From Anadara kagoshimensis (taxonomy: Eukaryota; Mollusca; Bivalvia; Arcoida; Arcidae): a stretch of 64,000 bases of DNA. The stretch lies in the NCBI GenBank assembly GCA_021292105.1, contig CM037874.1:12563115-12627114 (forward strand). Direction: 5' to 3'. The notes beneath the pieces are model-generated. The model had not been told where the DNA came from, did no database searches, and was given only the letters and a program-made list of their open reading frames with translations. Below are positions 12,421-32,760 of the stretch, one piece after another; within the stretch, counting starts at the first letter, position 1, and the number at the start of each line of letters is the position of its first letter. The position numbers were made by a program, and so were the translations under genes.

Positions 12421-12568
12421 TAGTTAAGGAATGGCTGTGAAACTGAAGCAAGATATGCTGCAAATATTCATTAATGTGACACTACAATAAGACAAACTTT
12501 TGTTATTATTACATTTTATATATAATAATACCAGTACTAGATTTGTTATATAAAATTTGACTCACAAA

Positions 12569-13642
12569 TATACAATGATCTTAATAAACCATACACAGTA
12601 AAAAACAAAACCTGGCTGAACTGATCTGTTGTGTTAGGATACACAATGACCTTAATAAACCATACACAGTAAAAAACAAAACCTGGCTGAACTGATCTGT
12701 TGTGTTAGGATACACAATGATCTTAATAAACCATACACAGTAAAAAACAAAACCTGGCTGAACTGATCTGTTGTGTTAGGATGCACAATGATCTTAATAA
12801 ACCATACACAGTAAAAAACAAAACCTGACTGAACTGATCTGTTGTGTTAGGATACACAATGATCTTAATAAACCATACACAGTAAAAAACAAAACCTGGC
12901 TGAACTGATCTGTTGTGTTAGGATACACAATGATCTTAATAAACCATACACAGTAAAAAAACAAAACCTGACTGAACTGATCTGTTGTGTTAGGATACAC
13001 AATGATCTTAATAAACCATACATAGTAAAAAACAAAACCTGACTGAACTGATCTGTTGTGTTAGGATACACAATGATCTTAATAAACCATACACAGTAAA
13101 AAAACAAAACCTGACTGAACTGATCTGTTGTGTTAGGATACACAATGATCTTAATAAACCATACACAGTAAAAAAAACAAAACCTGACTGAACTGATCTG
13201 TTGTGTTAGGATACACAATGATCTTAATAAACCATACATAGTAAAAAACAAAACCTGACTGAACTGATCTGTTGTGTTAGGATACACAATGATCTTAATA
13301 AACCATACACAGTAAAAAACAAAACCTGACTGAACTGATCTGTTGTGTTAGGATACACAATGATCTTAATAAACCATACACAGTAAAAAACAAAACCTGA
13401 CTGAACTGATCTGTTGTGTTAGGATACACAATGATCTTAATAAACCATACACAGTAAAAAAACAAAACCTGGCTGAACTGATCTGTTGTGTTAGGATACA
13501 CAATGATCTTAATAAACCATACACAGTAAAAAAACAAAACCTGACTGAACTGATCTGTTGTGTTAGGATACACAATGATCTTAATAAACCATACATAGTA
13601 AAAAACAAAACCTGACTGAACTGATCTGTTGTGTTAGGATGC
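12569..13642. repeat. Tandem array, ~71-72 bp unit, ~15 copies
   Basis: The unit contains 'aatgatcttaataaacc', 'atacacagtaaaaaac' and 'gaactgatctgttgtgttag'. Copies differ mainly in a 5-7 A run, CTGG/CTGA and ACACAGT/ACATAGT. Because unit length is close to a multiple of three, the - strand shows long frames repeating YPNTTDQFSQVLFF; these are repetition artefacts with no other coding support. Array homogeneity is high, which suggests recent expansion or conversion. Confidence 0.95.
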
Positions 13643-14279: not shown

Positions 14280-15068
14280 AATGTGCATTAGGCCAACACC
14301 TACAATATTCCAATATACATGCCTATACAAAGAGTTTATGGTTTTTGAGATAATTAACCATTTAAGTATTCGTTCGCATCTGTGACCTTGACCTTTGAAC
14401 CTATGACCTTCATTCATATATCAAAATGATTGTTGTGCAAATGCCTACAATATTCTAATATACATGCCTATACAAAAAGTTTATAGTTTTTGAGATAATA
14501 AACCATTTAAGTATTCGTTCAATTCTATGACCTTGACCTTTGAACCTATGACCTTCATTCATATATCAAAATGATCGTTGTGCAAATACCTACAATATCC
14601 CAATATACATGCCTATACAGAAAGTTTATAGTTTTTGAGATAATTAACCATTTAAATATTCGCTCCCAGCTATGACCTTGACCTTTGAACCTATGACCTT
14701 CATTCATATATCAAAATGATCGTTGTGCAAATACCTACAATATTCCAATATACATGCCTTACAAAAAGTTTATAGTTTTTGAGATAATTAATCATTTAAG
14801 TATTCGTTCGCAGCTATGACCTTGACCTTTGAGCCTATGACCTTCATTCATATATCAAAATGATCGTTGTGCAAATGCCTACAATATTCTAATATACATG
14901 CCGATACAAAAAGTTTATAGTTTTTGAGAAAATTAACCATTTAAATATTCGTTCGAAGCTATGACCTTGACCTTTGAACCTATGACCTTATTCATATATC
15001 AAAATAATCGTTAGGCCAATACCTACAATATTCCAATATACATGCCTATACAAAAAGTTTATAGTTTC
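14280..15068. repeat. Tandem array of ~143 bp units, first block (~5 copies)
   Basis: Units carry 'atgaccttgacctttgaac' then 'ctatgaccttcattcata', 'caatatacatgcctataca' and 'agtttatagtttttgagat'. The sequence TGACCTTGA occurs once per unit, near 14390, 14530, 14673, 14818 and 14963. The second block of the same unit is at 18241-19010. Confidence 0.9.
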
Positions 15069-18240: not shown

Positions 18241-19010
18241 TACATATACATGCCTATACAAAGAGTTTATGGTTTTTGAGATAATTAACCATTTAAATAT
18301 TCGTTCGAAGCTATGACCTTGACCTTTGAACCTATGACCTTTATTCATATATCAAAATAATCGTTAGGCCAATACCTACAATATTCCAATATACATGCCT
18401 ATACAAAAAGTTTATAGTTTTTTAGATAATAAACCATTTAAGTATTCGTTCAATTCTATGACCTTGACCTTTGAACCTATGACCTTCATTCATATATCAA
18501 AATGACCGTTGTGCAAATGCCTACAATATTCTAATATACATGCCTATACAAAAAGTTTATAGTTTTTGAGAAAATTAACCATTTAAATATTCGTTCAATT
18601 CTATGACCTTGACCTTTGAACCTATGACCTTCATTCATATATCAAAATGATCGTTATGCAAATACCTACAATATTTCAATATAAATGCCTATACAAAAAG
18701 TTTATAGTTTTTGAGATAATTAACCATTTAAGTATTCGTTCAATTCTATGACCTTGACCTTTGAACCTATGACCTTCATTCATATATCAAAATGATGGTT
18801 AGGCCAATACCTACAATATTTCAATATACATGCCTATACAAAAAGTTTATAGTTTTTGAGATAATTAACCATTTAAATATTCATTTGCAGCTATGACCTT
18901 GACCTTTGAACCTATGACCTTCATTCATATATCAAAATGATCGTTAGGCCAATATCTACAATATTCCAATATACATGCTTATACAAAAAGTTTATAGTTT
19001 TCAAGATATA
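18241..19010. repeat. Tandem array of ~143 bp units, second block (~5 copies)
   Basis: Same unit as 14280-15068. TGACCTTGA recurs near 18315, 18462, 18604, 18750 and 18896. Starts abruptly in 'tacatgcctatacaaagag'. Confidence 0.9.
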
Positions 19011-23523: not shown

Positions 23524-23644
23524 TCAGTTTTTATTTACACAATTTTTTCCCATCAAAAATTTTAATCTTGTTCTAAAGGCACGCACCATAGCAGACAATC
23601 TCTTATCTTCAACTGGAAGACTTTTAGCTAATTTTCTCTGATTT
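23524..23644 (-). CDS. Uncharacterised gene, last coding exon (aa 261-300)
   Basis: Acceptor CTTTTTTTCAG. Encodes NQRKLAKSLPVEDKRLSAMV, RAFRTRLKFLMGKNCVNKN and stop at 23524. An AATAAA overlaps the final codons (NKN), so a very short 3' UTR is possible; no other clear poly(A) signal is visible nearby. Confidence 0.82.
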
Positions 23645-26600
23645 CTGAAAAAAAGACAAATAAAGGTACATTTTTGTCCTATTGTGTTTTTCTTCTAGCG
23701 ATTGCTTCTTAGTGAGAATTTTTGGTTGTGTGGTTTTGATTGCCATGGTTATTGCAAGTAAAAGTTATATACAAATATACATGTATGGATTTGTGCAGAC
23801 AAGAATTTCAGATAGATGGACATGAATACAAACTTAATATCCCCCTCTTTCTTCAAAAGGCAGTGGATAAAAAAGGTTGATAACCTATGGAAAAGCTTGT
23901 GTGCAAGTAAATGCTCTTATCATGGCCTCTGGAACTGTACCAGATCGAGTCACATCCTTTGAACACCATTGTATCCAAACACAGAAAATCCTTGACCTTT
24001 ATTTGTTTCATGAGTTTGGGAAAAGTAAACTTTTAATTCTTTAAAATAAATTCCCTTTTTGGAGATTCAAAATTGTATTACCATACTTTAGCTTCTTACT
24101 ATGGCAACATAAATATCAAGTTATATGACATTAATACTCTGTTTAAGTATGTTACTATGGCAACATAAATATCAAGTTATATGACATTAATACTCTGTTT
24201 AAGTATGTTACTTTGGCAACATAAAAACTAACTAACAATGAGACTATGTGTTTATAAAACTTTGGTTAAGTATGATTATGTTATTATGGCAACATAAAAC
24301 TAACTTACAATGAGACTATGTGTTTATAAATCTTTAGATAAGTATGTTACTATGGCAACATGAAAACTAACTTACAATGAGACTATGTGTTTATAAAACT
24401 TTGGTTAAGTGTGTTACCATGACAACATAAAAACTAACTTGCATTGAGACTATGTGTTTGTAAAACTTTGGCTAAGTATGTTACTATGGCAACATAAATA
24501 ATCAAATACTAACCTTATTATAATTAAACTGTGTTTATAAAATCCTCTTTGCATAAGGCTTTGAGCAAAAAATAACCTGCATTGTGCAGCAACAACAGGG
24601 TCTCCCATTTCAATGGCTACTCTCAGTTGTTTGAAGGAAATTTTTCCTGCTTCTTCTGCCTGCAATATATATCAATTGACGTTTCATCAGCAATGCCTAT
24701 TATGTTCCGACACTGGCCGTCATCATGGTACCAAAACAGCGTCACAGCAACTAATGATGTATTAGTGTCAGTGACGTCATTTAAATGGCCTAATTCAGGC
24801 AGAGTTTTCATTCTTTTTAATTTGTCGAAACATTGTAGGCGTGGCTAGCGATCCATCAATTATTTATGACATTCTGTAAGCGAAAAAGATCCTTAGAACA
24901 ATGAAATCATCATGATAGATAATAGGAGCGCATTACATTTGGGCAAAATTTTCATAACCCCTATATGACATTTGAACAAAGGGTGTCTACTACTATTGCG
25001 CAAATCTTAATTGCCCATGTTAAACTGTTGAATAAACACCACTTGACCAGTTTTAGTTCACGATACATCACTGTAAAATTATTTCCGCTAGTGTCACATG
25101 ACCAGACTTAGTTTACTTCAAACTGTTGCCAACTGTAAAAGAACCAACAATGGCCCTGAATCTTTCTATTCTCGCTTTAATGAACAATTCTACACAAACC
25201 ATCCAAATATTTTTATCTTTGTGGACGTTATTTAACAGATTCAGAGTACAACTTATATAAAGATGCTATCATCGGATACCTTTTAACCGAATTTTAACAG
25301 ACTTTTAATGGTGCTTTTATCTGTCTTTGCAATAAGTATAATTTACTCGAAATCCCACTTCCACCTCCCTGTGGTGAGGAGGGGGCAACAAGTATCATCA
25401 CCTGGCTAATGGAAGAGGTAGTGTTTATTTAACATGGCAATTGCGTTTTGGGCATCTATTTAACATGACAATTACGTTTTGCAATTGTAATATAGGTCTT
25501 TGAGCAATCGTCATATTTTCTTTGCGCACAAGTCATATGGATTTGCGCAAATGTAATGCACTGAGAAAACAGATATTGAATGCAATAAACATAGCCTGTT
25601 ATGTATTTTTAACAATTTCTCCACAAATACTTGGGTAATTTAACTTTTATTATTAGTTTTGTATAACCCAATGTTGGTGCTTCAAAATATTTCAAAAAGT
25701 GAAATTCTCAATTGTTCTACCTAAGGGACCTTTTTGCTTATGGAACATCATATTAAAAATAAAGATGCGGCAGTTAATTATTTTACAAAATGTACATCCC
25801 TGTATTTTTAGTCATTTCCATATACATGTTTATAATCAAAATGGTTTTTTTGTTTTATTGAAGCCTCTAAAGCAGATAGAATTTACACTAAGTCGGAGAA
25901 CCAAAGGACACAATTCAATGACTTTTGAGTATGTAAACAAATGATGACAAATGTTTCAGTGATTCCCATATATTTACAATCAAAATATCATTCTATGAAG
26001 ACTTTAAGGCAAATTGAAGTCCGAGAACAACAGTGTAAAAAATGATGACATAATTTATCTTCGACCTCTGTGTATTGCAATGGGGCGCATCAACAAGAAA
26101 TTATACCAATTGTGGTTAGGGTTTCTCAAAGGACCAATATTCAATTGGGCTGTTCCATCTTTGTGTAAATCCAGACATAAAGTGACAAAATAAAATTTTG
26201 TTTTGTTTTCCTCACACTGGTTTGAAGACAATTGGGAATAACAAATTATGCAAGAACAGCTCCAATGCTCTTGCAATTTTCTATTCTTGACCATCTTTAT
26301 ACCAGTCTGAAGAAAAACAAATCATTCCTTCAATAAGAGTTAGTTGAGTAATGGTATTTTACGTCCCAGTCAAGAATTTTTCACATTTACCGAGACGTCG
26401 CCAGCTATAGGCGAAAGAGCGTGCGTTGTGCTGATGGCATTATACAGCAGGGTTCTTTAGCATGCCAAGCCTACCATGACACGGAACCTCCCACTTATGG
26501 AGCCTTCAATAAGATAAAAAGTAATCAGTTTATCAAATTCCTGTAATGAGGATCATTTTGTGAAGAACAATAACATGAGCAGATCATTTAATTGCCAAAA

Positions 26601-29600
26601 AAATCAATGACAAAAGACTGTTTCTACCGACATTTTGTCATAATGTCAATGGATTCTGCATTTTTTTGGGGGGGGGGGGGGGGGGACACATAAAATAAAC
26701 TCTGTGGCAAATAAATGATCCCATTGTGAGATTGATTTGCGCAAAATGTCCGTCATAATACAGTCAAACCTGTCCATAAAGGCCACCCAAGGGAACCAGT
26801 AATAATCACCTTTATGGGAAGTGGCCTTTATATACAGGTTCATATAATTGAATAAAGAACAATTGGGATACAATTCTACTGGCCTTTATAATGAGGTGGC
26901 CCTTATATAGAGGTGGCCTTTAAGGCAGGTTGGACTGTAATGTGGTCTGACAGATAACTTATAGGGGTTAATTTGGAAAGAACTTATTGCATAGAAATTT
27001 TTGAAGATTTTTATGGAAGATGACCAGTCACACTAAATTAATCTGACTTACGTGAAATTGAAAATAATCCCCGAGTGATGAGTAGGCCCCACCTAAGGTT
27101 GACAACCAGGCCATGGCTTCTTCCAGGATCATTCTCTTGACCACCTGGCCCTCCATTCTATAATCCCTGAAATTAATTGATTAAAAGAGGTTGGAATTCA
27201 TAGTCCAGTTAAACAATCTTAATGATATAATAATCAGAAATTTAAACTTAAAAACTATAAATGTACTTAGCATCACATGGTCAAATTGTCTTGGTTTCCG
27301 ACCATTCTGCGGAGTGTAATATTCACAGATTTATGAATATGACTATAAGATTCAAAATCACAAAATGGATTATGCAGTGTATGGCAATTGGTTTTGTCTT
27401 CAGACAATGACGCTGTTGCTTTGGTGAGGGGTGGGTGGGTGGTAGTAGTGGGGTGGTGGTGGGGGTTACACAGTGGTTGAGTGGTTCAAGACAGTTGTGG
27501 GATGAAAAATGGCGTGTCATAACCACCAACATCAAGAATCTTTCACTTATATTAAGACAGTTCTGGGATGAAAAAGGGAGTAACACCCCCATAGACATCT
27601 ATGTCACTAGCCAAATTTACCTGAACAAATTACATATAATGATAAAAAATTGTTTCAAACACCTCTGAACCTTGACTCACCAAGCAAAATATGTTTTTTA
27701 TTTTTTTTTGTGCACTGGCGTATATACATGTACTAACTAATCAAAGTCCAGTTTTTGTATTGGATATTGGGGTTTAATTTTTATAACAAAGTTAACTTAC
27801 CAAGCAAAGTCCAATTTCTGTATTGGATATTGGGATTTAATTTTTATAACAAAGTTAACTTACCAAGCAAAATCTAATTTCTGTATTCTATGTTTCCATT
27901 CCTGGTAGCCAAAATCGCCATTGGCTACTAATTTCTGAGGAATTCTTTTAAAAAGTAACCTATTTTAGCAAATTTGTGGAAAAATACTTTAAAAAGGACT
28001 ATATTTTCACAAATTTTGGAAATTTGGCTACTAATTATTTTAAATTTGTGGAAACCTAGGTATTGCATATTGGGGTTTAATTTTTATAACAAAGTTAACT
28101 TACCAAACAAAGTCCAGTTTTTGTATTGGATACTGGGGTTTAATTTTTATAACAAAGTTAACTTACAAGCAAAATCTAATTTCTGTATTGCATATTGGGG
28201 TTTAATTTTTATAACAAAGTTAACTTACCAAACAAAGTCCAGTTTTTGTATTGGATACTGGGGTTTAATTTTTATAACAAAGTTAACTTACAAGCAAAGT
28301 CCAGTTTTTGTATTGGATATTGGGGTTTAATTTTTATAACAAAGTTAACTTACCAAGCAAAATCTAATTTCTGTATTGCATATTGGGGTTTAATTTTTAT
28401 AACAAAGTTAACTTACCAAACAAAGTCCAGTTTTTGTATTGGATATTGGGGTTTAATTTTTATAACAAAGTTAACTTACAAGCAAAGTTCAGTTTTTATT
28501 GGATACTGGGGTTTAATTTTTATAACAAAGTTAACTTACAAGCAAAGTTCAGCTTTTGTATTGGATACTGGGGTTTAATTTTTATAACAAAGTTAACTTA
28601 CAAGCAAAGTTCAGCTTTTGTATTGGATACTGGGGTTTAATTTTTATAACAAAGTTAACTTACAAGCAAAGTCCAGTTTTTGTATTGGATATTGGGGTTT
28701 AATTTTTATAACAAAGTTAACTTACCAAGCAAAGTCCAGTTTTTGTATTGGATATTGGGGTTTAATTTTTATAACAAAGTTAACTTACAAGCAAAGTTCA
28801 GTTTTTGTATTGGATACTGGGGTTTAATTTTTATAACAAAGTTAACTTACCAAACAAAGTCCAGTTTTTGTATTGGATACTGGGGTTTAATTTTTATAAC
28901 AAAGTTAACTTACCAAACAAAGTCCAGTTTTTGTATTGGATACTGAGGTTTAATTTTTATAACAAAGTTAACTTACAAGCAAAGTTCAGCTTTTTTATTG
29001 GATACTGGGGTTTAATTTTTATAACAAAGTTAACTTACAAGCAAAGTCCAGTTTTTGTATTGGATATCGGGGTTTAATTTTTATAACAAAGTTAACTTAC
29101 CAAGCAAAGTCCAGTTTTTGTATTGGATATTGGGGTTTAATTTTTATAACAAAGTTAACTTATCAAGCAAAATCTAATTTCTGTATTGGATACTGGGGTT
29201 TAATTTTTATAACAAAGTTAACTTACCAAGCAAAGTCTAGTTTTTGTATTGGATACTGGGGTTTAATTTTTATAACAAAGTTAACTTACCAAGCAAAATC
29301 TAATTTCTGTATTGGATACTGGGGTCTAATTTCTATAACAAAGTTAACTTCAACACATCGATCAAAGTCTTTTATCGGCTCCACAAATTGCTGTTTAAAT
29401 CCTATGTTTTTATGTAAATACTTTAAAAATCGTCTCCTGAATGTCCTTGACCTAGATATTTCACACATGACACAAGATGCTACATGTGCATCAACCTCCC
29501 ATGTTGCTTGGAGATATGGCACAATCTGTGTATAAGAAAGCTTAAAAATAGTCCAAAGTTTTTCTGAATTTGATTTACTACTCCTGTCATCTTTGATAAT

Positions 29601-29837
29601 AAACTGATGTTTTTCTCTGATGGCTCGTTCAGGTGTGATAAAATATTTGACTGCCGTAAACAAACACAAGCATGTTGTTTTAGTCTCTTTATGTGCCAGG
29701 AAGCCCAGGCCGATTTCTCCATCATTAAATACTACTGGGGAGAGTTCTCGGCCGTAAAAACGGTAATCATACAACACTCGATCTATGTCAACATAAAATA
29801 GAACCTGCATCTCTCCATACTAACTACCCTCTATATC
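23524..29837 (-). CDS. Uncharacterised conserved-looking protein, 300 aa, 4 coding exons
   Basis: The coding exons on the - strand are 29290-29810, 27052-27166, 24514-24659 and 23524-23644 (521+115+146+121 nt = 903 nt, 300 residues plus stop). All junction phases agree: TG|G, phase 0, then AG|A. The start at 29810 has an in-frame TAG 12 bases upstream, and a splice acceptor just above it makes 29811-29837 a 5' UTR. The protein starts MQVLFYVDIDRVLYDYRFYG; later it reads FAWDYRMEGQVVKRMILEEA, GKISFKQLRVAIEMGDPVVA and CRLFFAQSLMQRGFY. It has no signal peptide, membrane segment or known catalytic motif that I can see. The helical, Leu/Ala-rich C-terminal half resembles a helical repeat (TPR-like) fold, which is inference. 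I cannot name the family. The gene is divergent to CENPJ. Introns 1 and 3 begin with tandem arrays copying their own 5' splice sites. Confidence 0.85.
24099..24500. repeat. Tandem array in intron 3 copying the exon 3 splice donor
   Basis: Five units of ~66-70 bp ('actatggcaacataaaaac', 'taacttacaatgagac', 'tatgtgtttataaaact') are followed, farther from the exon, by two 57 bp units with the same 'tatggcaacataaa' core. The sequence over the exon end, 'aacataaataatcaaatact', 'aac', then 'cttattataattaaactgtg', 'tttataaaa', aligns with a unit. Each of the five longer units keeps ACTAAC (GTTAGT on the gene strand). Confidence 0.8.
24514..24659 (-). CDS. Uncharacterised gene, coding exon 3 (aa 213-261)
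   Basis: Acceptor TATATATTGCAG. The preferred donor is ATAAG|GTTAGT at 24513. It gives AAQCRLFFAQSLMQRGFYKH and then SLIIIR, leading smoothly into RNQRKLAK. A second possible donor (GCAG|GTTATT, exon end 24577) is in the same phase and would shorten the protein by 21 residues; it matches the donor consensus less well. Confidence 0.75.
24684..24840. mobile_element. Diverged copy of the TCGCCAGCCATGCC MITE
   Basis: 'caatgcctattatgttccga' and 'gatgtattagtgtcagtgac' match, in inverted orientation, the copies at 42149-42353 and 56244-56433. It lies 25 bp upstream (gene sense) of the exon 3 acceptor of the - strand gene. Confidence 0.6.
24930..25565. mobile_element. TIR element (GCATTACATTTG ends), ~635 bp, in intron 2
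   Basis: Left 'gcgcattacatttgggcaaa' pairs with right 'ttgcgcaaatgtaatgca'. 'tttaacatggcaattgcg' and 'ttaacatgacaattacg' form a short internal direct repeat. No coding sequence is seen. Confidence 0.55.
26345..26505 (+). repeat. Dispersed repeat 'cagtcaagaatttttcaca'
   Basis: Runs 'gggtatttt'-like lead, 'cagtcaagaa', 'gacgtcgccagctataggcg' and 'cctcccacttatggagcc'. The same order is seen at 10010-10130, 16540-16700 and in both arms of the fold-back element at 45539-47894, so it is an old dispersed family. Confidence 0.6.
26760..26939. mobile_element. Complete CAGTC..GACTG MITE with TA target duplication
   Basis: It starts TA-CAGTCAAACCTGTCC and ends CAGGTTGGACTG-TA, so it has inverted ends of about 14 bp and a TA duplication, as in Tc1/mariner-type MITEs. 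The interior repeats 'gtggcctttata'. Another complete copy is at 45300-45481; partial copies are at 8475, 19735, 19915, 40193 and 57045. This copy is in intron 2 of the - strand gene. Confidence 0.75.
27052..27166 (-). CDS. Uncharacterised gene, coding exon 2 (aa 174-212)
   Basis: Acceptor AATTAATTTCAG and donor CAC|GTAAGT. Encodes DYRMEGQVVKRMILEEAMAW followed by LSTLGGAYSSLGDYFQFH. It joins exon 1 in frame through a split TGG. Confidence 0.88.
27741..29289. repeat. Tandem array in intron 1 copying the exon 1 splice donor
   Basis: Twenty-one units of 62-63 bp, plus the authentic exon end as a 22nd, each run from GTTAACTTTGTTAT to GCTTG(G)TAAGTTAAC on the gene strand. The unit is the last ~56 nt of coding exon 1 plus the splice donor. 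All but about one unit (near 29161, TATC in place of TACC) keep GTAAGT. Units still translate to VNFVIKIKPQYPIQKLDFAW, close to the exon's VNFVIEIRPQYPIQKLDFAW. A MITE (27888-28059) splits one unit. GTTAAC at both ends of the unit is a likely slippage point. Confidence 0.92.
27888..28059. mobile_element. CTAGGTTTCCA MITE inside the intron 1 array
   Basis: The ends CTATGTTTCCATTCC and GTGGAAACCTAG are inverted. Inner blocks GGTAGCCAAA and TTTGGCTAC are also inverted. The flank GTATT is repeated on both sides. Copies are also at 38717-39181 (split by a SINE) and 50049-50223. Confidence 0.8.
29290..29810 (-). CDS. Uncharacterised gene, coding exon 1 (aa 1-174)
   Basis: Ends TTTGCTTG|GTAAGT, phase 2. 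The last ~56 nt (VNFVIEIRPQYPIQKLDFAW) are the parent sequence of the tandem array in the following intron. This exon carries more than half of the protein and has normal coding character (no stop in 174 codons). Confidence 0.85.
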
Positions 29838-30236: not shown

Positions 30237-32760
30237 TGATTTGCTAGGCAGTGTGTCATGTGTTAACTGTCATGTACCAACCAATGTGTATAGTACTGTA
30301 GGTCAGTGTGTCAAGTGTCAACTGTCATGTACCAATTTATACAGTACTGCTAGATTATGGTTTGCTAGGCAGTGTGTAAAGTGTCAACTGTCATGTACCA
30401 ATGTGTACAGCAGGGCTCAAAGTTGCGACTAAATTAGGCGCCATGGCGACCAATTTTTTCCATTGGCGACCAATTTTTACTCATAAGTCGCCAAGTTGGC
30501 GACCGCTTTTTCGGGAGTTCAAAATTCTCGATCATGTCCATTTCCGTTTTTCTATTTGTGTTTTACATATTGTCAAAGTGTTTCCGGTACTCCTCGGACT
30601 ACCTCGTGAATTTCACAGGGATTCTTTCGTATATATATATACACAAAACGTCAAAAGTGTTCCGAATAGAACAATAAGCATGGCTGGGAAGCGGCAGTCT
30701 ATTGATAGTTTTTTCAAGCCAAGAGGCGCTGCTCCCAAAAAGCAGGCAATCGATCACAGCGTTGACGAGCCGGAGGAGAAGAAACAGAAGTCTCTGACTT
30801 CATCTGAATTATGTTAGCTGGCCAGACGATGAATCTTTGTAACCACCTTTGAACAATGAAAATGAAAATGAAAAAAAACAATGATTGATAATAAATGTTT
30901 GATATTATACAGTATACAATGTGGTTTTAGATTCTTTTAAGGATACAGTCACATTAATTTTTTTGCTGGTGCCTTAATGTCTCAATTGGCGCCTAAAAAT
31001 TTCAATTGGCGCCTAATTTTTTTATATAAGGAGCCAGGCTGGCTCCTAGATTCAAAAAGTCACTTTGAGCCCTGTACAGTTCTGCTAGGTTATGATTTGC
31101 TAGGCAGTGTGTCAAGTGTCATGTACCAATGTGTACAGTACTGCTGGGTTATGGTTTGTAAGGCAGTGTGTCAACTGTCATGTAACAATGTGTACAGTTC
31201 TGTGAGGTTATGGTTTGCTAGGCAGTGTGTCAACTGTCATGTAACAATGTGTACAGTTCTGTGAGGTTATGATTTGCTAGGCAGTGTGTCAACTGTCTTG
31301 TACCAATGTGTACAGTACTGCTGGGTTATGGTTTGTAAGGCAGTGTGTCAATTGTCATGTAACAATGTGTACAGTTCTGTCATGTACCAACGTGTACAGT
31401 TCTGCGAGGTTATGGTTTGTAAGGCAGTGTGTCAACTGTCATGTACCAACGTGTACAGTTCTGCGAGGTTATGGTTTGCTAGGCAGTGTGTCAACTGTCA
31501 TGTACCAACGTGTACAGTTCTGCGAGGTTATGGTTTGTAAGGCAGTGTGTCAACTGTCATGTACCAACGTGTACAGTTCTGCGAGGTTATGGTTTGCTAG
31601 GCAGTGTGTCAACTGTCATGTACCAACGTGTACAGTTCTGCGAGGTTATGGTTTGTAAGGCAGTGTGTCAACTGTCATGTACCAATGTGTACAGTTCTGC
31701 GAGGTTATGGTTTGCTAGGCAGTGTGTCAACTGTCATGTACCAATGTGTACAGTACTGCTGGGTTATGGTTTGTAAGGCAGTGTGTCAACTGTCATGTAA
31801 CAATGTGTACAGTTCTGTGAGGTTATGGTTTGCTAGGCAGTGTGTCAACTGTCATGTACCAAGGTGTACAGTTCTGCGAGGTTATGGTTTTCTAGGCAGT
31901 GTGTCAACTGTCATGTACCAATGTGTACAGTTCGATGAGGTTATGATTTGCTAGGCAGTGTGTCAACTGTCATGTACCAATGTGTACAGTTCGATGAGGT
32001 TATGATTTGCTAGGCAGTGTGTCAACTGTCATGTACCAACGTGTACAGTTCTGCGAGGTTATGGTTTGCTAGGCAGTGTCAACTGTCATGTACCAACATG
32101 TACAGTTCTGCGAGGTTATGGTTTGTAAGGCAGTGTGTCAACTGTCATGTACCAACGTGTACAGTTCTGCGAGGTTATGGTTTGCTAGGCAGTGTGTCAA
32201 CTGTCATGTACCAACGTGTACAGTTCTGCGAGGTTATGGTTTGTAAGGCAGTGTGTCAACTGTCATGTACCAATGTGTACAGTTCTGCGAGGTTATGGTT
32301 TGCTAGGCAGTGTGTCAACTGTCATGTACCAACGTGTACAGTTCTGCGAGGTTATGGTTTGTAAGGCAGTGTGTCAACTGTCATGTACCAATGTGTACAG
32401 TTCTGCGAGGTTATGGTTTGCTAGGCAGTGTGTCAACTGTCATGTACCAACATGTACAGTTCTGCGAAGTTATGGTTTGTAAGGCAGTGTGTCAACTGTC
32501 ATGTACCAATGTGTACAGTTCTGCGAGGTTATGGTTTGCTAGGCAGTGTGTCAACTGTCATGTACCAACGTGTACAGTTCTGCGAGGTTATGGTTTGCTA
32601 GGCAGTGTGTCAACTGTCATGTACCAATGTGTACAGTTCGATGAGGTTATGATTTGCTAGGCAGTGTGTCAACTGTCATGTAACAATGTGTACAGCACTG
32701 CTAAGTGATGGTTTGCTAGGCAGTGTGTCAACTGTCATGTACCAATGTGTACAGCTGTTA
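30237..32760. repeat. 59 bp tandem array, ~31 copies, dimeric structure
   Basis: The unit carries 'tatggtttgctaggcagtg', 'tgtcaactgtcatgtaccaa' and 'cgtgtacagttctgcgaggt'. Over 31400-32560 units alternate between TTTGCTAGGC and TTTGTAAGGC, making a 118 bp higher-order dimer. A 664 bp hAT-like element splits one unit at 30411. Frames of up to 124 codons here (CQLSCTNVYSSARLWF) are repetition artefacts. The array lies just upstream of the first recognised exon of the - strand gene, probably in its 5' UTR intron. Confidence 0.93.
30411..31074 (+). mobile_element. hAT-like element with N-terminal transposase fragment, 664 bp
   Basis: The ends are CAGGGCTCAAAGT and ACTTTGAGCCCTG, flanked by TACAG on both sides (30406-30410 and 31075-31079). 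At 30680-30817 an open frame reads MAGKRQSIDSFFKPRGAAPK, then KQAIDHSVDEPEEKKQKS, and stops after 45 residues. The 'KRQ-S-DSFFK' start is typical of the N terminus of hAT/ZMYM-type transposase-derived proteins. No BED finger, catalytic core or dimerisation region follows. 'ggcgaccaattttt' and 'tcaattggcgcct' form subterminal repeats. It is a deletion derivative that landed in one unit of the array. Confidence 0.8.

Follow-up and report, generated by a model that had tools for sequence, protein, structure and literature searches.

The window, that is the whole stretch of 64,000 nucleotides analysed here (C18:12563115-12627114), lies in a 1.1-Gb genome and carries on its - strand a gene with four coding exons. 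In a Pfam profile search its product was recognised as a DUF4807 protein (PF16065, F58A4.6-like) with 44.1 bits against a curated cut-off of 27, and a 300-aa frame was found intact when the four exons of the window were spliced by script. The protein of the blood clam Tegillarca granosa was the closest among 66 homologues, with 83% identity across the full 261-aa query, which makes an ark clam the probable source. A match of the same product to Gad1 (E 0.052) stayed under the cut-off of that family and was taken as chance. PDB searches yielded no matches. The features of the gene are as follows, with slashes marking splice boundaries.

29290..29810, - strand: coding exon 1 of the DUF4807 gene, 521 nt, phase-2 end (TG/G)
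29289-27167, - strand: intron 1, 2123 nt
29284..29346, - strand: exon-resident unit copy, made up of the final 57 nt of exon 1 and the true donor GTAAGT
27742..29283, - strand: intronic array, 22 further unit starts, 20 intact GTAAGT and 1 ATAAGT
27888..28059, no strand assigned: 172-bp insert splitting one unit, missing from the second-copy array, with a 95% relative at C18:23077432
27685..27741, - strand: insert of ~57 nt with an A-rich end, TTTG-flanked, splitting the far-end unit, also found in the second locus copy
27675..27684, - strand: far-end exon-end/donor remnant CTTG/GTGAGT, followed by CAAGGTTCAGAGG
27052..27166, - strand: exon 2, acceptor TTTCAG/GGATTATAG
24514..24659, - strand: exon 3, donor AAG/GTTAGT
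24096..24498, - strand: second array of the gene, in intron 3, 56- and 67-bp units
23524..23644, - strand: exon 4, including the stop codon

The end of exon 1 was assessed in an alignment of the window protein with 11 molluscan sequences taken from the 66 homologues. Splicing from the first donor gave an exon 1/2 junction (W/YRM) with zero gaps against the 11 sequences. W174, whose codon is split by intron 1, was invariant in 12/12 alignment rows, and the Pfam DUF4807 match (residues 168-210) spans the junction. By homology, the first GTAAGT (29289) is the predicted productive donor and end of exon 1, where the original prediction had also placed it. We infer that cells use this donor and that use of the later ones is rare.

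The repeat unit, which joins the 57 nt at the end of exon 1 to GTAAGT, recurs in 60-63-bp steps through most of intron 1. Tandem Repeats Finder (TRF) reported a period of 63 with 20.7 copies and 93% matches at 28060-29350 and another 2.3 copies at 27742-27887, and cutting by unit start gave 23 unit starts on the - strand, 1 exonic and 22 intronic. Together with the donor counts, this confirms the predicted array of the exon-1 end and its donor within intron 1. An exact GTAAGT occurs 21 times in the intron, the true donor included, at distances of 60-63 nt that are broken only at the lost donor or at the 172-bp insert. Twelve of these read TTG/GTAAGT and nine, lacking the -1 G, CTT/GTAAGT; the 9-mer TTGGTAAGT is common to 12 of the 21, again with the true donor among them. 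One array unit ends in ATAAGT and the far-end unit in GTGAGT (27680). With 20 of the 21 later unit-end donors intact and one broken (ATAAGT), the expectation that about 20 of 21 intronic copies keep GTAAGT was borne out. This anatomy is directly observed. The 172-bp insert looks like a MITE when judged by eye, and CAAGGTTCAGAGG, behind the far-end remnant, is likely ancestral intron.

Peptides encoded by the intronic units had been described as differing from the exon by E-to-K and R-to-K alone. This holds for 6 of 19 aligned units; in the other 13, A>V, D>N, P>A, P>S, Q>R or Q>K come on top (the count excludes the far-end unit, the one of 60 bp and the one that the 172-bp insert interrupts). 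Both the E>K and the R>K change eliminate an AG. Since several homologues have E at the E>K site (among them the Tegillarca, Mytilus, Pinctada and Liolophura rows), the exon letter there is probably older than K. At the R>K site Tegillarca has K, so that the direction is ambiguous.

Further tandem repeats were seen in the window. Upstream of exon 1, a 59-bp minisatellite of more than 20 copies (31073-32754) has a unit without a GTRAGT-type donor by eye; other long arrays lie at 12568-13640, 14298-15067 and 18244-19008; and a 145-bp unit occurs at two sites, with diverged relatives near C18:23099393.

When two joined units were searched against the DNA of the whole genome, the array was found at two places, the window and C18:23.068 Mb (at least 16 matches). 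About 94 kb around the window match C18:23.02-23.12 Mb (23021000-23121000), at a distance of 10.5 Mb within the contig, in a largely collinear, gapped arrangement. Outside the repeat arrays, most of the larger blocks (>700 bits) are 92-98% identical and two are 85% and 89% identical. This second locus copy may have come from a large duplication, or it may be the other haplotype that the assembly retained. Its array is observed to be shorter, with 10 intronic unit starts against 22 in the window, and does not contain the 172-bp insert; the exon-unit copy is identical between the two loci. Exon 1 of the second copy showed seven single-base indels in the alignment, and stops were reported by a six-frame search; the sequence there may be poorly polished, or the copy may be broken.

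The predicted outcome of donor choice was obtained by joining each of the 22 GTRAGT in intron 1 to exon 2 by script and translating the product. The first donor led to the 300-aa protein and all of the other 21 to one and the same truncation of 174 residues, because the GTAAG of the retained first donor reads TGG-TAA in frame. The right protein is thus predicted to come solely from the first donor, as had been stated, and the proposed benefit of donor redundancy falls away at the protein level.

Donor hexamers of the array deviate from GTAAGT at 1/120 cells (20 units), the adjacent first 24 nt of the unit deviate from the majority at 1/456 cells (19 units; Fisher p 0.38), and the last 33 nt do so at 41/627 cells (19 units). 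In this per-cell comparison of the window units, neither extra conservation of the array donors nor selection on them was seen, and as the hexamers vary like the adjacent 24 nt, their conservation needs no selection. Among sites varying in at least two window units, read by eye, 6 of 8 varying transition sites were synonymous versus 18 of 57 possible transitions (binomial p 0.015; 6/9 and p 0.033 when one transversion was counted), in a post hoc test on linked sites. This excess hints that some array copies formerly were the coding copy; neutrality from birth does not predict it.

The donor that preceded the array should survive in the far-end unit. Its sequence is GTGAGTCAAGG in the window and GTAAGTAAAGG in the second locus copy, and behind the TTTG-flanked insert with its A-rich end the last unit finishes with CTTG/GTGAGTCAAGGTTCAGAGG and CTTG/GTAAGTAAAGGTTCAGAGG, respectively. 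An origin by slippage between two GTTAAC 6-mers, one in the exon and one in the donor, had been proposed. It is not supported, as the far-end donor is without TTAAC in both copies. Since GTTAAC is missing there, its occurrence after the donors appears to have arisen with the array, and GTAAGTTAAC is probably the duplication junction, formed via AAGT (exon GAAGT/TAAC, donor GTAAGT/AAAGG; here the slash stands behind the shared AAGT).

The account that we favour, with a probability of roughly 0.7, is that a minisatellite was seeded across the exon/donor boundary, escaped into the intron and is tolerated while the first donor is used. A short tandem duplication would have taken in the donor together with the 57 nt of exon 1 before it, and the far-end unit suggests that this seeding step used the 4-bp microhomology AAGT, which GAAGT/TAACTTTG of the exon shares with GTAAGT/AAAGG of the old donor region. 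Repeats inside a coding exon would normally harm the protein; a unit with its own donor would leave with the intron whenever the first donor is the one chosen. Each copy would bring such a donor, so that splicing from the first one would discard the extra copies as intron, and the array would be free to expand, homogenise and drift as minisatellites ordinarily do, with the protein unchanged. A nearly neutral array, provided that the first donor is chosen, is the simplest account, and among the roles listed originally the neutral one fits best.

Several other readings were weighed against this neutral tolerance. Its main open rival holds that decoy donors reduce productive splicing in step with the length of the array: they would take a share of splicing into one truncated mRNA, probably prone to nonsense-mediated decay, and the length of the array would tune the amount of full protein. 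The identical 174-aa product of the other 21 GTRAGT, the 9-mer that 12 of the 21 GTAAGT have in common with the true donor, and the different array lengths of the window and the second copy would all suit such a rheostat. However, the array donors are without extra conservation, and the loss of the -1 G in nine copies should weaken U1 pairing; we regard this reading as unlikely. A preference for the acceptor-nearest donor would turn most transcripts into nonsense, which would count against the tolerance reading. U1-bound sites can also protect an intron from premature polyadenylation, which is known as telescripting. A beneficial landing array for U1, aiding exon definition or acting in this way, would accord with the intact donor sites that lie densely across most of intron 1, but the donors show no selection signal and a loss of donor 1 would not be rescued by redundancy, as donor 2 leads to a stop. 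Such a benefit is improbable, more so than the decoy reading.

Recursive splicing through the array, another of the roles first suggested, finds an argument in the regular spacing of the donors. It is opposed by the finding of 0 matches to an AG/GTRAG ratchet site in the 2123 nt of intron 1 and by the 29 of 29 aligned intronic units (20 from the window, 9 from the second copy) that are without the TATAG of the exon copy; of all readings we give it the least credence. That the locus is an assembly artefact or a pseudogene is likewise very improbable. The single-base indels in exon 1 of the second copy and its irregular units would fit a poorly polished or broken sequence, and the copy number of the array could be inexact. 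Against this reading speak the unit-specific variants, the inserts within units, the differently sized arrays at two collinear loci and the intact 300-aa frame at the window, 83% identical to the Tegillarca protein.

The same layout was observed at an unrelated exon. A ZIP-type exon on the - strand at C1:9713496-9713389 encodes a 36-residue peptide that matches Pfam Zip (PF02535) with E 3.4e-9 and 36.8 bits against a cut-off of 35.1, a score resting on this single exon peptide. Behind the exon, AG/CTGCTAGTGCC...GATAAAG, its last ~60 nt and its donor recur in copies of 71 bp (within C1:9712900-9714100). As read from this stretch, 6 of 7 donors are GTAAGT, the true donor included, and one is GCAAGT; a protein search returned the full exon with five partial copies adjoining. 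This zinc-transporter-like (ZIP) exon is an independent case, of a gene known here from one exon.

Within the DUF4807 gene itself, the array of intron 3 probably, though not certainly, includes the donor region of exon 3 together with the ~30 nt of exon before it. The final 30 nt of the exon scored 28 against this array, which was reached by 5/3733 control windows on the - and 1/3733 on the + strand. For the last 40, 50 and 60 nt the numbers were 6, 9 and 11 on the - and 2, 3 and 3 on the + strand (~3730 windows each); the last 25 nt were unexceptional (97/3734 and 85/3734). In a shuffle control, the score of the last 49 nt was reached by 1/500 and that of the exon end extended by 42 intronic nt by 0/500.

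Genome-wide, three GGTAAGT in 47-77-bp steps gave 8652 matches (3860+4792) versus 2480 for the reversed word, and the control triples GTGATAG and its reverse gave 4534 and 4034, all counts being inflated by big arrays. As isolated single words in 194 kb, GGTAAGT occurred 6, TGAATGG 39, GTGATAG 15 and GATAGTG 11 times. Arrays of AGGTGAGT were not enriched genome-wide (597 versus 935 for the reverse), which argues against a general donor-array habit. Among the matches listed, distinct clusters on C1, counted by eye, numbered 11 in 18.7 Mb for GGTAAGT, 14 in 39.7 Mb for TGAATGG and 9 in 21.9 Mb for GTGATAG. Six of the 11 listed GGTAAGT clusters were classified: one is a clear exon case (ZIP) and one a possible case (C1:4404126); of the other four, two are alike and dispersed-repeat-like by eye, one is a long complex array and one has no regular repeat. 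At C1:4404126, a 59-bp array starts at a putative short exon that follows TTTGCAG and ends in ATGGTAATG/GTAAGT. Generality of donor arrays in this genome is thus suggested, with mixed word counts. It is possible, though rather doubtful, that the genome repeatedly grows minisatellites over 5' splice sites, as a general route that turns exon ends into intron and leaves dozens of near-identical donors at many genes; such minisatellites would recur there because an exon-overlapping repeat survives solely with its own donor.

The array resembles ordinary intronic minisatellites in unit size, in the near identity of its units and in the length difference between the locus copies, but its unit is an exon end plus splice donor and not plain intron. 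A known parallel is human IFI6 (6-16, G1P3), whose minisatellite reportedly spans the exon end and is said to have units much shorter than 63 bp; in IFI6-like minisatellites, later donors typically give alternative full proteins. The title of Turri, Cuin and Porter 1995 (NAR 23:1854) names multiple splice donor sites in the IFI6/6-16 minisatellite, and a passage of PMC4526556 describes two of its downstream repeat units as used donors giving isoforms. With this precedent, the claim that no system of this kind had been described was too strong. In both genes a minisatellite with splice donors in its units follows the exon, and according to these sources the IFI6 units serve as alternative donors. 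In the array described here, too, the tandem repeats start in the exon, each with a donor (one of the 21 later ones broken). However, the sources speak of isoforms for IFI6, whereas here the unit is 63 bp long and mostly coding, every later donor leads to a stop, and alternative full proteins were obtained from none of the other 21 GTRAGT. The gain of introns through tandem duplication of exonic sequence that bears a proto-splice site, as outlined in PMC2891723, is similar in that coding sequence and a splice motif are tandemly duplicated and the extra copy becomes intron. In contrast to that outline, an existing intron was lengthened here and its donor multiplied, with no new acceptor or intron: intron 1 contains no AGGTRAG from which a new donor and acceptor could derive, and its acceptor is the TTTCAG before exon 2. 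Among the hits listed by literature searches, which covered few subscription papers and are no proof of absence, no mollusc case of exon-end donor arrays appeared.

The locus would be a natural experiment in how 5' splice sites are chosen, as 21 GTAAGT stand in near-identical surroundings and, judged from the sequence, the first alone is productive. Donor choice at the array would tell a preference for the first-transcribed, the acceptor-nearest or the exon-defined donor apart. With the ZIP exon as the other case, this genome has at least two instances of the layout, so that arrays of different length can be compared. A simple rule is suggested, namely that repeats are tolerated when they bring their splice site with them, and this rule predicts that donor arrays should outnumber acceptor arrays.
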